Source of the DNA: Ostreibacterium oceani
GTDB taxonomy: Bacteria; Pseudomonadota; Gammaproteobacteria; Cardiobacteriales; Ostreibacteriaceae
Assembly: GCF_009362845.1 (NCBI RefSeq)
Contig: NZ_WHNW01000002.1
Coordinates: forward strand, 186,001 to 250,000
Length of the DNA stretch: 64,000 nucleotides
Direction: 5' to 3'
The translations under genes and the position numbers were made by a program. The notes beneath the pieces are model-generated. The model was not told where the DNA came from. It saw only the letters and a program-made list of their open reading frames with translations, and made no database searches. Shown piece after piece: positions 52,008 to 61,802 of the stretch. How positions within the stretch are numbered: position 1 is the stretch's first letter; each line of letters begins with the position of its first letter.

Positions 52008-52937
52008 TTAAAAATGGTCAATCCCCTGATTGAGCCCTAGCTGCTGCAAACTGCTGTCATTATCCGACCAATTTTCTTTGATTTTAACCCAAGTACGCAA
52101 CTCAACGGGCTGTCCGAGCAACAATTGTAATTCCTTTCGTGCTTGCGTACCAATCATCTTAATAATTTTACCGCCTTTGCCGACGACAATCGGTTTTTGG
52201 CTGGCACGTTCTAACAAAATAGTCACAAATATTTGCACCTTGCCATCGACTTCTTTGTAGCTGTCGGTAATCACCGCAATTGAATAAGGAAGCTCTTGGT
52301 GTAATGCTTTGAATAGCTTTTCGCGGACAATTTCGCTGGCAATAAAGCGCATACTTGCCGTTGTCAGCTGATCGTCTGGGTAAATTTTGTCACCCAGTGG
52401 CAGATAATTCGCAATCACGTCCAGTAAATGCGACACGTTGCGATTTTTAAGGGCTGAAACGGGGACAATTTCTGCGTATGGATAGCGCGTTGACATCGCT
52501 TCAATCTCAGGAATAATAGCGTCCATGTTTGACAACAAGTCCATCTTATTAAGTACCGCAATCACAGGAATATCATGCCGCTTGAGCAACTGCAACACAT
52601 AGTCATCGTCTGTCGTCCAGCGCGTGCTATCACAAATATGGACAATCACGTCGACTTGCTCCAACGCCAGACGTGCCGATTTATTCATGTACTGATTAAT
52701 TTTTTTATCGGCTTGTTGGTGCAGCCCTGGGGTATCAACAAAAATATATTGCGCCTTTTCACTGGTGTGAATTCCTAATAGATTTTGGCGTGTCGTTTGT
52801 GGCTTGCGCGAGGTTATCGCCAGTTTTTCCCCCAAAATATAATTCAATAGCGTTGACTTGCCTACATTTGGGCGACCGACAATCCCAATGTAGCCTAGTT
52901 TATAGTGTTTATTTGTCTTTTTATCTGTTGTATTCAT
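52008..52937 (-). CDS. era: GTPase Era
   Basis: 309 residues from ATG 52937. An essential GTPase that binds the 3' end of 16S rRNA during 30S assembly. G motifs: GRPNVGKST (G1), DTPGLH (G3), NKMD (G4), and the C-terminal KH domain has PIVVGKGGKIIKMIG. Two upstream in-frame ATGs (52967, 52982) lie in a 15-bp repeat encoding MNTDP; 52937 has the better upstream GGA. It is the last gene of lepA-lepB-rnc-era, separated from rnc by a repeat-filled gap. Confidence 0.95.
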   Translation of the reverse strand: MNTTDKKTNKHYKLGYIGIVGRPNVGKSTLLNYILGEKLAITSRKPQTTRQNLLGIHTSEKAQYIFVDTPGLHQQADKKINQYMNKSARLALEQVDVIVHICDSTRWTTDDDYVLQLLKRHDIPVIAVLNKMDLLSNMDAIIPEIEAMSTRYPYAEIVPVSALKNRNVSHLLDVIANYLPLGDKIYPDDQLTTASMRFIASEIVREKLFKALHQELPYSIAVITDSYKEVDGKVQIFVTILLERASQKPIVVGKGGKIIKMIGTQARKELQLLLGQPVELRTWVKIKENWSDNDSSLQQLGLNQGIDHF

Positions 52938-52960
52938 GGGTTCCGTCTTCGTAGGGTCTG

Positions 52961-52990
52961 TATTCATGGGGTCTGTATTCATGGGGTCTG
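52961..52990. repeat. 15-bp repeat duplicating the era start codon
   Basis: Two copies of TATTCATGGGGTCTG, each containing an in-frame CAT (ATG on the minus strand), with a related copy near 52931. The repeat creates alternative era starts that differ by five codons. Confidence 0.75.
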
Positions 52991-53148: not shown

Positions 53149-53841
53149 TTACATGCCAAATTCGTGCAGTAGCGCAAGCGTTGTTTTCGCGGCTTTTTGC
53201 TCTGCTTTTTTTTTGCTGCTGGCGGTGGCGGTTGATTCGTGCGTGCCAACACGACAACAAACAACAAACTGCTTGTCGTGATCAGGCCCCGATATGGATA
53301 GTAATTCGTATTCAGGGCGGCCTTCGCCGCGGCTTTGCAAGTACTCTTGCAATTGGGTTTTTGCATCTTTCAGCACGCTGGCATCAGGCAGCTCTCGTAG
53401 GTATTTTTGATACATCGCTTCGACAATGGCATAGGTCGCATCAAAGCTATTATTATCCAAATAAATCGCCGCAACAATGGCTTCTACGGCATCCGCCAAT
53501 GTCGAATCCCGTTGATACCCACCTGTACGTAGCTCACCTGAGCCAACACGGATATAGTGTTTTAATTGCAAATCGTCGGCGATTTTAGCCAGCGTCACAC
53601 CGCGCACCATATTCGCACGCAACCGTGTCAAATCGCCTTCGTTCGCTTCGGGTCGCAAAGAAAACAACAAATCACTCAAAATCGTCTCGAGTAGCGCATC
53701 ACCCAAAAACTCTAGCCGCTCGTTGTTATGCTGACTTTTACTGCGGTGTGTCAGTGCTTGGACTAACAAGTCCCTATTGGTAAACGTATAGCCTAGGGTG
53801 TTTTCTAAGCGCGCTAAGTCTGCTTTTTCGTTATCTACCAT
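53149..53841 (-). CDS. rnc: Ribonuclease III
   Basis: 230 residues (E. coli 226). A double-strand-specific endoribonuclease processing rRNA and structured mRNAs. The catalytic signature NERLEFLGDALLETILSDLLF (in segments) is intact, with VEAIVAAIYLD for the second acidic cluster, and a C-terminal dsRNA-binding domain (KTQLQEYLQSRG...SKKKAEQKAAKTTL). It overlaps the lepB stop by 7 bp. Confidence 0.96.
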   Translation of the reverse strand: MVDNEKADLARLENTLGYTFTNRDLLVQALTHRSKSQHNNERLEFLGDALLETILSDLLFSLRPEANEGDLTRLRANMVRGVTLAKIADDLQLKHYIRVGSGELRTGGYQRDSTLADAVEAIVAAIYLDNNSFDATYAIVEAMYQKYLRELPDASVLKDAKTQLQEYLQSRGEGRPEYELLSISGPDHDKQFVVCCRVGTHESTATASSKKKAEQKAAKTTLALLHEFGM

Positions 53842-54737
53842 ATTTTTTTAAAAAAGCGATCACAATTCCCATCACCCTTAAAACAATCAAAGTTCAAAAT
53901 CACGCGCGCCGCTTTGCCTATCACAAGGCTGTCATCGACAAAGCCAAATTCACGCCCATCTGCCGAATTATCTCGATTATCACCCATGACCAAATACTGC
54001 CCTTCAGGCACGCGCCACTCACGAGGGCGGTACTGATTCGGCGGGTATTGACTGTATTGAATGGTGTGCGAATAACCACCCAAATTTTCGTTAAGCACTT
54101 CGTAATTCACTGTGACGGCCTGCCCTGCGGTGTTTAAAACGGTTTGCTGCTGTGTTTCATTGGTTTTTTCTAAGACAACGGGCTCGCCATTGAGTGTCAT
54201 GCGCCGATTGTCATAATAAACCACATCGCCTGGCAAACCAATCACGCGCTTGATATACGATTGCGATGGGTCTTTGGGGTATTTAAATACCAATACATCG
54301 CCACGCGCAATCGGCGCACCGTCGGTCAAGCGACTATTCGTAATCGGTAACCGCAATCCACGCGAAAATTTATTCACCACCAATACATCACCGACCAACA
54401 GCCCTGGCTCCATAGACCGTGACGGGATAACAAAAGGCTCATATAAAAAGCTACGCACACCCACGACAATCAGTAAAATCCAAAACAAATCGGCAAAAAA
54501 ATACACTTTGCGTTTAACGCCCGTATTGAGCTCTGCTTCTAATGCTTGCATTTTTGCCAGTCTATACGCCTGCTTTTGTTTTTTATCACGCGGCTTGGCG
54601 TATTGATTGTCTGCCGCTTTTAGTGCTTGTTGTATAGATTTAGCAAAGCTCATTCGATACACCGCATAGCATATTGCCGCGACTAAAAATAGCCCAATTA
54701 GCGCTGGCTCGAAAAATTGCCTCAATGAATCAAACAT
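53835..54737 (-). CDS. lepB: Signal peptidase I
   Basis: 300 residues. An inner-membrane protease removing signal peptides. An N-terminal helix (about 12-28) and a second hydrophobic segment (about 82-98) precede the catalytic domain. The serine is in IPSRSMEPGL, the general-base lysine in SYIKRVIGLPGD, and the conserved MGDNRDNSADGREFG box is present. A strong GAGGAA Shine-Dalgarno precedes the ATG. Confidence 0.96.
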   Translation of the reverse strand: MFDSLRQFFEPALIGLFLVAAICYAVYRMSFAKSIQQALKAADNQYAKPRDKKQKQAYRLAKMQALEAELNTGVKRKVYFFADLFWILLIVVGVRSFLYEPFVIPSRSMEPGLLVGDVLVVNKFSRGLRLPITNSRLTDGAPIARGDVLVFKYPKDPSQSYIKRVIGLPGDVVYYDNRRMTLNGEPVVLEKTNETQQQTVLNTAGQAVTVNYEVLNENLGGYSHTIQYSQYPPNQYRPREWRVPEGQYLVMGDNRDNSADGREFGFVDDSLVIGKAARVILNFDCFKGDGNCDRFFKKIW

Positions 54738-54849: not shown

Positions 54850-56640
54850 TTAATTATCAGTTTTGAGTACCGCTAAAAATGCTTCTTGGGGGATATCGAC
54901 TTTGCCCACACTCTTCATGCGTTTTTTACCTTTCTTTTGTTTTTCAAGTAATTTCTTTTTACGCGACACATCGCCACCATAACACTTCGCCAATACGTTT
55001 TTCCTAAGCGCCTTGACGGTAGAACGCGCCACAATATGCGAACCAATAGCCGCCTGAATGGCGACTTCAAACATCTGCCTGGGGATGAGTTCTTTCATTT
55101 TCTCAACCAAATCCCGCCCACGGTATTGGGCTTGGTCGCTGTGTACAATCAGCGCCAGTGAATCCACTTTATCGCCATTGATAAGGATGTCTAACTTAGT
55201 CAGTTTGGCGGCCTGAAAGCGGACAAAGCTATAATCAAACGAAGCAAAACCACGCGATACCGACTTAAGTCGGTCAAAGAAATCCAACACCACTTCACTC
55301 ATCGGCATTTCAAAGCTTAATTGCACTTGATTGCCTGCATATTGCATGTTTTTTTGCACGCCGCGTTTTTCGATACAAAGCCCAATCACCGCGCCAAGGT
55401 AATCCTTGGGCACTAAAATATTCGCGATAATAATTGGCTCACGAATTTCATTAATTTCGTTAGGCTCAGGCAGGTTGGCGGGGTTGTCAATTTGCATCAC
55501 GTCGCCTGTTTTGGTCTCAACCTCGTAAATAACGGTCGGGGCGGTGGTGATTAAATCTAAATCATACTCTCGCTCTAGGCGTTCCTGCACAATCTCCATG
55601 TGCAACATCCCTAAAAAACCACAACGAAAACCAAACCCCAAAGCAGTCGATGTCTCAGGCTCAAAAAACAGCGACGCATCATTTAGCCTAAGCTTTTGCA
55701 GCGCCTCACGAAGCTTTTCGTAATCCTCAGACTCGACAGGGAAAAGGCCTGCAAAAACACGGGATTGAACCTGTGTAAACCCAGGCAATGGGGTATCAGC
55801 GAGATTCTGCGCATCCATCACAGTATCACCGACTGGCGCACCGTCAATGGCTTTGATACCCGTAATCAAATAACCCACTTGCCCCGCATGTAGCACGTCT
55901 TTGTCTTGTCTTTTGGGGGTGAAGATACCGACTTTATCGACAATATGCTCGGCCTTGGTCGAGCAAATGCGAATTTTCTGTTTTTTGCTAATTTTGCCAT
56001 CAACGACACGAATCAACGACACCACACCGACATAATTATCAAACCATGAATCAATAATCAACGCTTTTAATGGCGCATCCGGGTTGCCCTTGGGTGGCGG
56101 AATAAACTGCACCAACTTTTCTAGCAATTCAGGTACGCCTTGCCCTGTTTTGGCGCTACAGCGTGGTGCATCGCTCGCATCAATACCGACAATATTTTCG
56201 ATTTCAGCGCAAACGCGATCAGGGTCTGCCGCTGGTAAATCAATTTTGTTGAGTACGGGTAAAATTTCCACATCTTGTTCGATGGCGGTATAACAATTGG
56301 CGACCGATTGGGCTTCCACGCCTTGTGCGGCATCGACCACCAATAACGCGCCTTCGCAAGCCGCCAGCGAGCGTGAAACTTCGTAGGAAAAATCCACGTG
56401 CCCTGGTGTGTCGATAAAATTGAGTTGATAAACTTCACCGTCTTTGGCGTGGTAGTCAAGGGTCACGCTTTGCGCCTTAATCGTAATCCCGCGCTCGCGC
56501 TCTAGATCCATCGAATCAAGGACTTGCGCAGACATTTCGCGCTCAGTTAATCCGCCACAAATTTGGATAATGCGATCGGATAGCGTCGATTTACCGTGAT
56601 CAATGTGTGCAATGATAGAAAAATTTCGAATATGCGCCAT
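54850..56640 (-). CDS. lepA: Elongation factor 4 (LepA)
   Basis: 596 residues from ATG 56640 (an upstream in-frame TTG is not favoured). A ribosomal GTPase involved in initiation or back-translocation. G motifs: HIDHGKST (G1), DTPGHVDFS (G3), NKIDLP (G4). The LepA-specific C-terminus (about 490-596) includes [18 protein letters not shown] and the [15 protein letters not shown] signature. It heads the operon lepA-lepB-rnc-era under the promoter at 56675-56703. Confidence 0.97.
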
Positions 56641-56669
56641 AGTAGCGTCCAATTAATTCCCGTAAAAAA

Positions 56670-56698
56670 GCGACATTATACCGAACAACCTTTATAAT
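56670..56698 (+). promoter_or_regulatory. ribF promoter
   Basis: Plus strand GCGACA (56670-56675), 17 bp, TATAAT (56693-56698), about 97 bp upstream of the ribF ATG. Its -35 overlaps the lepA -10 and the reverse. Confidence 0.55.
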
Positions 56699-56702
56699 GT
56701 CG
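56671..56702. promoter_or_regulatory. Perfect inverted repeat between lepA and ribF
   Basis: CGACATTATA (56671-56680) and TATAATGTCG (56693-56702) are exact inverted copies, 12 bp apart. Together they build two symmetric, fully overlapping divergent promoters. Confidence 0.8.
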
Positions 56703-56703
56703 T
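56675..56703 (-). promoter_or_regulatory. lepA promoter
   Basis: Minus strand ACGACA (56698-56703), 17 bp, TATAAT (56675-56680), 35 bp upstream of the lepA ATG. The -35 keeps GACA of the consensus. Confidence 0.6.
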
Positions 56704-56794
56704 GCATTGAGTTCGTTTAATTTTTTAAACCCCGATTTAAAAACCGTATCCATCAGTATAACGCAACAACGACAAACCCCGTACAAAACTTCGC

Positions 56795-57778
56795 ATGCAA
56801 ATCATTCATTCGCTAGAAAACCCGACCAAAAACCCCATTGCCCTCACCATTGGTAATTTTGATGGCGTGCACATTGGGCATCAAGCGATTTTCAAACAAC
56901 TACGGATAGCGGCTAACGCACGCCAGTTAACGCCAGCGGCGATGACATTTACCCCGCACGCACGCCACTTATTCCATGAAATTGACAACTACCTAATCAC
57001 GACACCTCACGCTAAATCCGCTCTGATTCAACAAGCTGGCATTGACCTATTATGGGAAATCAATTTTGACGAAGCCTTTGCACGGCTAAGCGCAGACGCT
57101 TTTATCGCGCGTTTAATTGAGCAACTGCAAGTCAAATACGTATTAATCGGGGATGATTTTCGTTTTGGTCATCGTGGCGAGGGGGATTTTGCCCATTTGC
57201 AGTCAGCGTGTGAACGCGCCAATATTACTGTCGAACAATCACCAACCGTGAATTGGCAGGGCGAGCGCGTCAGCAGCAGTCGCATCCGTGCCGCCATCCA
57301 GTCGGCGCAGTTTGATGTTGCTAGACAACTACTAGGACGTGACCTCTGCTATCGCGAGACGGTCATTTATGGGCAACAAATTGGGCGTACGCTCGATTAC
57401 CCCACCGCGAATTTATCCTTTGATCAGACTTTGTGCTTACCCAATGGCGTGTTTGCCGTCAGCGTTGGCATTGACGAGAGCGCCTTTAACGAGAGCGCCT
57501 TTGACGAGAACGCCTGCATTGATGCAGACACCACCCATCCACTAAGGTGGCCCGCACTATGCAATATCGGCAAAAAACCCACCATCGGGCATCACCAACG
57601 CCTAGTGGAAGTCCACATACTCGATTTTAACCAATCGTTGTACGGCAAGTCGCTGACGATTTATCCGCACAAAAAACTACGCAATGAACAAACCTTTGCC
57701 GATTTAACCGCACTCAAAGCCCAAATCCAAGCCGATGAAGCCGCTGCCCGCGTGTTTTTCAACCTACCGCCCAGTTAG
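56795..57778 (+). CDS. ribF: Bifunctional riboflavin kinase / FAD synthetase
   Basis: 327 residues. Makes FMN and FAD. The N-terminal FAD synthetase (about 1-180) has LTIGNFDGVHIGHQ and GDDFRFGHRGEGDF; SSSRIRAAI closes it. The C-terminal flavokinase (about 185-315) has IGRTLDYPTANL (the PTAN motif) and a terminal HIL/EVHILDF stretch. An insertion of about 20 residues around 227-245 comes from a 15-bp tandem (ESAF repeats). ileS and lspA, common neighbours, are absent. Confidence 0.95.
   Translation: MQIIHSLENPTKNPIALTIGNFDGVHIGHQAIFKQLRIAANARQLTPAAMTFTPHARHLFHEIDNYLITTPHAKSALIQQAGIDLLWEINFDEAFARLSADAFIARLIEQLQVKYVLIGDDFRFGHRGEGDFAHLQSACERANITVEQSPTVNWQGERVSSSRIRAAIQSAQFDVARQLLGRDLCYRETVIYGQQIGRTLDYPTANLSFDQTLCLPNGVFAVSVGIDESAFNESAFDENACIDADTTHPLRWPALCNIGKKPTIGHHQRLVEVHILDFNQSLYGKSLTIYPHKKLRNEQTFADLTALKAQIQADEAAARVFFNLPPS
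57473..57517. repeat. In-frame 15-bp repeat inside ribF
   Basis: Three GACGAGAGCGCCTTT-like units (57473, 57488, 57503) encode DESAF/NESAF/DENAC in a loop of the flavokinase domain. Confidence 0.85.
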
Positions 57779-60887: not shown

Positions 60888-61802
60888 TTACTTTAAGGCA
60901 AAATTCAGCGCAACCTGCTGATTAGCAGTCACACCTGCCGGTCTTGGCTGATAGCGACCGACTTTCTTTACCGCCGCAACGGCCGCTTTGTCTAAATGCC
61001 GATTGCCCGAGCTTTGCACCACTCGCACCCCAGAAATATCCCCTTGCGCACCCAGCGTAAACGCTACCACCACACGACCCTCTGCACGAGCTTGGCTCGC
61101 ACGTCTAGGGTAGCGCTTATTGCGCTCGATAGCTTGCCGCAACCCTGATTGATAAGCGGCTATCGCCTGTGGATTACTCGCCTGTGGATTACTCGCCTGT
61201 GGATTACTCGCCTGTGTGTTATTTTTTGCCTCAGCCTGCTTTTCGGTGCTCTTTTGCGCACTCTTTTGCGTACTTTTTTCGCTGCTTTGCGCATCGCGAT
61301 CTAAACGAGACTGTTCAGCACGTTCTTTTTCGGCACGTTCTTTTTCGGCACGTTCTTTTTCGGCACGTTCTTTTTCGGCACGTTCTTTTTCGGCACGTTC
61401 TTTTTCGGCACGTTCTTTTTCGGCACGTTCTTTTTCGGCACGTTCTTTTTCGGCACGTTCTTTTTCAGCACGTTCTTTTTCAGCACGTTCTTTTTCGGCG
61501 CGTTCTTTTTCGGCGCGTTCTTTTTCGGCGCGTTCTTTTTCGGCGCGTTCCTTTTCGGCACGTTCCTTTTCAGCGCGTGCATCTCTGATGTGTAGTGCGC
61601 TTAGTGATAGCACCCGTTGCGCGACACTCGCCTCGCTGGGCTGCACCGACAAATCACGCCCCCACTGAATGCCAGCTATCGCTAAGCCAAAAACTAACAT
61701 CGTTAGCAAAAAAGACAATCCGTAGCGTATTAGTGCCTGCTTCGTCGCGACTATTGTAGGCGATTTCTCGGCAACAGATTTTTCGGCAACATTCACAGGC
61801 AA
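60888..61802 (-). CDS. tonB: TonB protein with AEKER repeat spacer
   Basis: 304 residues. An N-terminal membrane anchor (about 27-46, LSFLLTMLVFGLAIAG) is followed by a periplasmic spacer and a C-terminal TonB domain (about 225-304: NKRYPRRASQARAEGRVVVAFTLGAQGDISGVRVVQSSG in part, then ...AVKKVGRYQPRP). TonB transmits proton-motive force to outer-membrane receptors. The usual Pro-rich spacer is replaced by 17 tandem AEKER units, likely a single charged helix, then NPQAS repeats. Start appears to be TTG 61802. It is the last gene of exbB-exbD-tonB. Confidence 0.93.
   Translation of the reverse strand: MPVNVAEKSVAEKSPTIVATKQALIRYGLSFLLTMLVFGLAIAGIQWGRDLSVQPSEASVAQRVLSLSALHIRDARAEKERAEKERAEKERAEKERAEKERAEKERAEKERAEKERAEKERAEKERAEKERAEKERAEKERAEKERAEKERAEKERAEKERAEQSRLDRDAQSSEKSTQKSAQKSTEKQAEAKNNTQASNPQASNPQASNPQAIAAYQSGLRQAIERNKRYPRRASQARAEGRVVVAFTLGAQGDISGVRVVQSSGNRHLDKAAVAAVKKVGRYQPRPAGVTANQQVALNFALK
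61164..61208. repeat. In-frame 15-bp repeat (NPQAS) in tonB
   Basis: Three exact copies of CGCCTGTGGATTACT (61164, 61179, 61194) encode ASNPQ/NPQAS on the minus strand. Confidence 0.9.
61321..61575 (-). repeat. 17-unit 15-bp tandem array (AEKER) in tonB
   Basis: Seventeen consecutive CGTTCTTTTTCGGCA units with synonymous third-position changes (GCA/GCG, CTTTTT/CCTTTT) toward the proximal end. The central units are identical, pointing to recent expansion. Confidence 0.95.

Follow-up and report, generated by a model that had tools for sequence, protein, structure and literature searches.

Opposing promoters with overlapping core elements have been described before. In pLS20 the boxes of the promoters Pr and Pc correspond exactly, given the boxes that the authors favour in the available part of their paper (PMC4207663), and a reciprocal −10/−35 layout is therefore already in print. 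The same part of that paper, citing Bendtsen 2011, holds that overlapping promoters can form a switch if their strengths differ and if a regulator has strong and unlike effects on the two. At five bidirectional promoters of E. coli, weakening one −35 element in vitro hardly affected the divergent RNA, according to the portion of the report available (PMC12825309, Warman 2026). Improving one −35 element lowered transcription in the opposite direction, and the change made at bdcR did not stimulate as expected (PMC12825309, same portion).

Here we discuss a site in Ostreibacterium oceani, between the divergent genes lepA and ribF (Table 1), at which two predicted sigma70-type promoters are plausibly placed so that two polymerases cannot bind together. 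It lies in a stretch of 64,000 nucleotides, here called the window, which is part of contig C2 (367,438 bases, one of 36 contigs). The arms CGACATTATA (56671-56680) and TATAATGTCG (56693-56702) are exact reverse complements. The original prediction of a 10-bp exact inverted repeat with a TATAAT on each strand, and of −35 hexamers (ACGACA and GCGACA) at 17 bp on both sides, is confirmed by the sequence, and the names given to lepA, lepB, rnc, era and ribF hold. The lepA reading frame is listed from a TTG at 56652, but the ATG at 56640 is its likely start. Both hexamers agree with TTGACA at only four of six positions. In a consensus scan the two promoters score 10 of 12 each and are the sole promoter-like matches within 56500-57000; shuffled versions of this interval give a mean of 1.1 matches, so two matches per se are unremarkable. 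Each −35 element was also said to coincide with the −10 element of the opposite promoter, which is right as to overlap and too strong as to coincidence, since the boxes abut and have one base in common on either side (56675 and 56698). The sequence thus contains two opposite, predicted −35/−10 promoters of sigma70 type with overlapping cores. Setting the start 7 bases past each −10 element places the predicted starts at about 56668 (minus strand) and 56705 (plus strand), 37 bp apart, with predicted leaders of about 28 nt for lepA and 90 nt for ribF. Occupancy by one polymerase at a time, as had been proposed, follows from this geometry and is documented for other overlapping pairs in the parts available of PMC4207663 and PMC12825309. 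A search of 56400-57000 returned no match to Rfam families at the gathering score.

Table 1. Genes and predicted promoter elements at the lepA/ribF site (window coordinates).
Feature	Position	Strand	Basis or remark
era	52008-52982	-	same strand as lepA, after rnc
rnc	53149-53841	-	same strand as lepA, after lepB
lepB	53835-54737	-	same strand as lepA, after it
lepA (elongation factor 4)	54850-56640	-	TIGR01393
-35-like GCGACA (4/6), predicted ribF promoter	56670-56675	+	other strand of lepA discriminator and last lepA -10 base
10-bp exact inverted repeat, 12-bp loop	56671-56702	.	sequence
-10 TATAAT, predicted lepA promoter, then discriminator GTCGC	56675-56680	-	consensus scan and f3/f4 relatives
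-10 TATAAT, predicted ribF promoter	56693-56698	+	consensus scan; 96 nt from ATG
-35-like ACGACA (4/6), predicted lepA promoter, 17-bp spacer	56698-56703 (read 56703-56698)	-	consensus scan
TATAAC, possible relic or alternative of inherited ribF -10	56757-56762	+	32 nt from ribF ATG
ribF (bifunctional riboflavin kinase/FAD synthetase)	56795-57778	+	TIGR00083

The explanation that we consider probable is a lineage-specific, overlapping divergent pair of sigma70-type promoters, composed of an inherited lepA promoter and an extra TATAAT on the ribF side, and not a regulatory circuit. Its lepA half can be followed in related genomes. The O. oceani genome is alone in its family among the genomes searched, and families f2, f3 and f4 are sister families in the same order. 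lepA loci were retrieved from 30 of the 32 genomes of the order; two were left out, L062 because the contig stops within it and L065 because its frame is broken, and the set used comprises 28 loci, those of O. oceani and of 27 relatives (nine in f3, one in f4 and 17 in f2). Gene starts in relatives, for lepA and ribF alike, were taken as the ATG of the match or the first in-frame ATG upstream. TATAAT or TATACT followed by a CG-containing discriminator is found 32-56 nt from the lepA ATG in nine of the ten f3 and f4 relatives, with discriminators such as GCCGCC, GTCGCC and AGCGCC; L046, for example, has TTTCGGTATAATTACGCC where O. oceani has GTTCGGTATAATGTCGCT. This recurrence supports a minus-strand promoter at its predicted place. 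The exception is the f3 relative L042, with TAAAAT, and it counts against our explanation, as do the 17 f2 relatives, none of which has TATAAT or TATACT in the interval 28-60 nt before the ATG of lepA. The f2 loci have a TATAAT at 74-118 nt in nine cases and none within the 125 nt scanned in the other eight. No conserved −35 element was found at the lepA loci of the f3 and f4 relatives, where the best hexamers agree with the consensus at only 2-4 of 6 positions, so the lepA ACGACA does not look inherited.

Two side observations concern these loci. G+C-rich, CG-containing lepA discriminators are seen in f3 and f4 at L037 to L041, L043, L044, L046 and L050; G+C-rich discriminators are often tied to control by ppGpp and DksA. 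The excluded lepA match at L065 (G017:C5) contains internal stops and a frame break, so that either the gene has decayed or the sequence is in error.

The ribF half has a different record. ribF loci came from 29 of 52 matching relatives, and leaving out L031 gave 28, ten of them in f3. A TATAAT lies 20-28 nt from the ribF ATG in seven of the ten f3 relatives, followed by GC-rich bases (e.g. GCGCGC), and none is listed for L021, L022 and L029. The plus-strand TATAAT of O. oceani, at 96 nt, finds no support from relatives across the 28 ribF loci, a further point against our explanation. The sequence of O. oceani at 32 nt from the ribF ATG is TATAACGC, in which TATAAC is followed by GC. The consensus scan requires a final T in the −10 element, and TATAAC could not be listed by it. 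It is possible, if unlikely, that only the lepA promoter matters and that most ribF transcription begins nearer to the gene, at this TATAAC or elsewhere, the plus-strand TATAAT being minor or silent. Both the position of the f3 elements, which the TATAAC at 32 nt resembles, and the distance of the plus-strand TATAAT from the gene argue for such a start. The TATAAC, however, is without the last T, a base that is usually well conserved in −10 elements; the hexamers at 16, 17 and 18 bp upstream of it match TTGACA at 2, 1 and 0 of 6 positions (TTTAAA, at 15 bp, matches at four), and the more distant TATAAT is itself a perfect −10 element. Judged from one genome set beside distant relatives, the ribF promoter that was inherited may be functional to this day or may have been lost by decay, and the overlapping promoter may be the newer of the two.

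How far the arrangement exceeds chance depends on which of its properties is counted. Reciprocally overlapping promoter-like pairs number 4 in C2, and 30 first-order Markov sequences gave 3.7 ± 1.7; the reciprocal layout as such is therefore at the level of chance. The lepA/ribF site is nevertheless the only reciprocal pair in C2 in which both members reach at least 10 of 12, and the only one in which both −10 elements are perfect; none of the 30 Markov sequences gave a pair of either kind. Non-overlapping, outward-facing perfect −10 elements at most 60 bp apart form three pairs in C2, with gaps of 12 (lepA/ribF), 38 and 53. ORF calling yields 34 divergent gene gaps in the contig, five of which have perfect −10 elements on both strands, and among these five the reciprocal −10/−35 spacing occurs only at the lepA/ribF pair. 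The structure is thus not trivial, yet anyone who picks sites by eye from a window should occasionally come upon one that is this rare. At a given place and intergenic composition the probability is about 0.0009 for TATAAT and 0.001 for GTCG, and chance at one of many sites or selection for the −35 elements could both explain these two motifs.

Other sites in the contig came to light in the same survey. At 119552-119559 of C2, outside the window, a divergent gap contains ATTATAAT, in which perfect −10 elements overlap each other, a candidate bidirectional promoter with a shared −10 element. In another divergent gap, at 221278/221290 of C2 (35278/35290 of the window), perfect −10 elements face each other. 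Exact 10-bp inverted repeats with a loop of at most 40 have 121 starts in C2, compared with 9-27 in five Markov sequences, and are therefore a general feature of the contig. Repeat arrays are present in the window as well: in a putatively TonB-like ORF at 60888-61802 on the minus strand, a 15-base unit that encodes an AEKER-type repeat occurs 17 times (61314-61571), and another array with a 15-base unit, 3.6 copies long, lies at 61163-61216.

Among the exact 10-bp inverted repeats of C2, that of lepA/ribF is the only one with TATAAT in its arms. A favoured genome motif behind the symmetry was considered and rejected: TATAATG[CT]CG has two sites in C2, both belonging to the lepA/ribF pair, against 2.3 in ten Markov sequences. 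Across 32 genomes of the order, a hand count gave 49 sites for TATAATGYCGCC and 22 for the control; the TATAATGYCGCC sites are mostly in family f3, and O. oceani has one. With exact 10-bp arms that begin 22 bp from each other, roughly two turns of the helix, the repeat would also suit a dimeric transcription factor that uses it as an operator for both genes. Such an operator is highly improbable here, and one belonging to a regulon can be rejected, as the genome of 2.18 Mb contains the 20-letter pattern only once when at most three mismatches are allowed, and an exact copy of the half-site TATAATGTCG is present at just one further place, in C12. The arms, moreover, can be read as −10 element plus discriminator, and neither neighbour is a regulator. 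The identity of all ten arm bases does exceed what two promoters need, which tells against our explanation. It could reflect selection for exact symmetry, each discriminator doubling as the opposite −35 element and the pair having a fixed lepA-operon/ribF ratio and common growth-rate control through the G+C-containing discriminator, and this we regard as very unlikely. Were the symmetry selected, a change in one discriminator would also alter the −35 element of the other promoter.

lepA and ribF are adjacent at none of the 27 lepA and 28 ribF loci of relatives (each viewed with at most 1.5 kb of flank, the family itself being represented by O. oceani only). ATTATA within 40 bp upstream of the listed −10-like hexamers is likewise absent from the 27 lepA loci and from the 18 ribF loci that have such a hexamer, out of 28. 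Conservation in relatives, offered as a check by the original prediction, thus turned out negative for the pairing; only the lepA-side −10 element recurs, in f3 and f4. The symmetric pattern GACATTATA-N12-TATAATGTC, with at most two mismatches, was searched for in 369 genomes and has 12 sites, which belong to 11 genomes, O. oceani included; a reversed control has 29 sites, counted by hand. The layout is therefore not enriched in the class but rarer than its reversed control, and class-wide use of it is rejected on these counts. Four of the other 11 sites lie inside ORFs and seven are intergenic, of which only L097 and, loosely, L095 stand between divergent ORFs.

A separate observation from this search concerns L092 (at 355) and L099 (at 1501), 3.4 kb apart on the same contig (G129:C205), where two palindromes of the form TACATTATACTC...GAGTATAATGTA occur. 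One is perfect over 30 bases and the other has perfect 12-base arms; they look more operator-like than promoter-like.

These counts bear directly on the proposal that promoter competition links lepA-lepB-rnc-era with ribF without a regulator. The geometry permits only one polymerase at a time, and competition does occur between strong promoters with a related arrangement (PMC12825309, portion available). The gene pair is not kept in the relatives examined, however, the layout shows no enrichment in the class, and basal competition was not seen at the five E. coli promoters covered by the same portion of PMC12825309. With a TATAAC closer to ribF besides, the suggested coupling of translation and secretion to flavin synthesis finds no support, and we consider a competition link very improbable. 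Given −35 elements that match at 4 of 6 positions on both sides, basal competition is more likely to be weak, and mutating one promoter would be expected to leave the other unchanged. A single −10 element is common to both directions in the E. coli promoters, so they serve the lepA/ribF site as an analogy only.

The promoter pair that we favour could have arisen in few steps. lepA and ribF would have become neighbours in the lineage of O. oceani by a rearrangement, and the intergenic region probably arose then. The minus-strand promoter would be the inherited lepA promoter, TATAAT with a G+C-rich discriminator. Read on the other strand, its −10 element and discriminator GTCGC give GCGACATTATA, which would supply a passable −35 element, GCGACA, and one added TATAAT 17 bp further on would complete a plus-strand promoter able to serve ribF. 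GTCG after this TATAAT would in turn provide a −35-like hexamer for the lepA promoter. We infer that both promoters are active; only one of them could be occupied by polymerase at any moment. With promoters of ordinary strength this probably costs either gene little, and the effect on expression would be weak.

Should both promoters be active, the site would offer a small, naturally occurring instance of reciprocal −10/−35 overlap, and it would plausibly illustrate how, following a rearrangement, a second promoter can be built upon an existing one. Its value would be that of a test case for promoter evolution and not of a new regulatory system. With the bidirectional promoters of Warman it has in common, as far as the available parts of PMC12825309 and PMC10268837 describe them, divergent sigma70 transcription through sequence symmetry, steric exclusion and, in some cases, a position between divergent genes. 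Those promoters, according to the same parts, have starts 7-25 bp apart (18 being commonest) and a shared −10 element, whereas the lepA/ribF site has two separate −10 elements and predicted starts about 37 bp apart, which places it outside their definition; this difference in geometry also tells against our explanation. The comparison with pLS20 is limited to the part of PMC4207663 available. There, Pc is several hundred-fold stronger than Pr in the absence of the regulator, RcoLS20 represses Pc and activates Pr, and starts were mapped by primer extension, whereas the two halves of the lepA/ribF site score alike and their starts are predicted. Pr/Pc is a precedent for boxes that coincide; what it and the lepA/ribF pair would have in common is opposite, overlapping promoters with room for one polymerase at a time.
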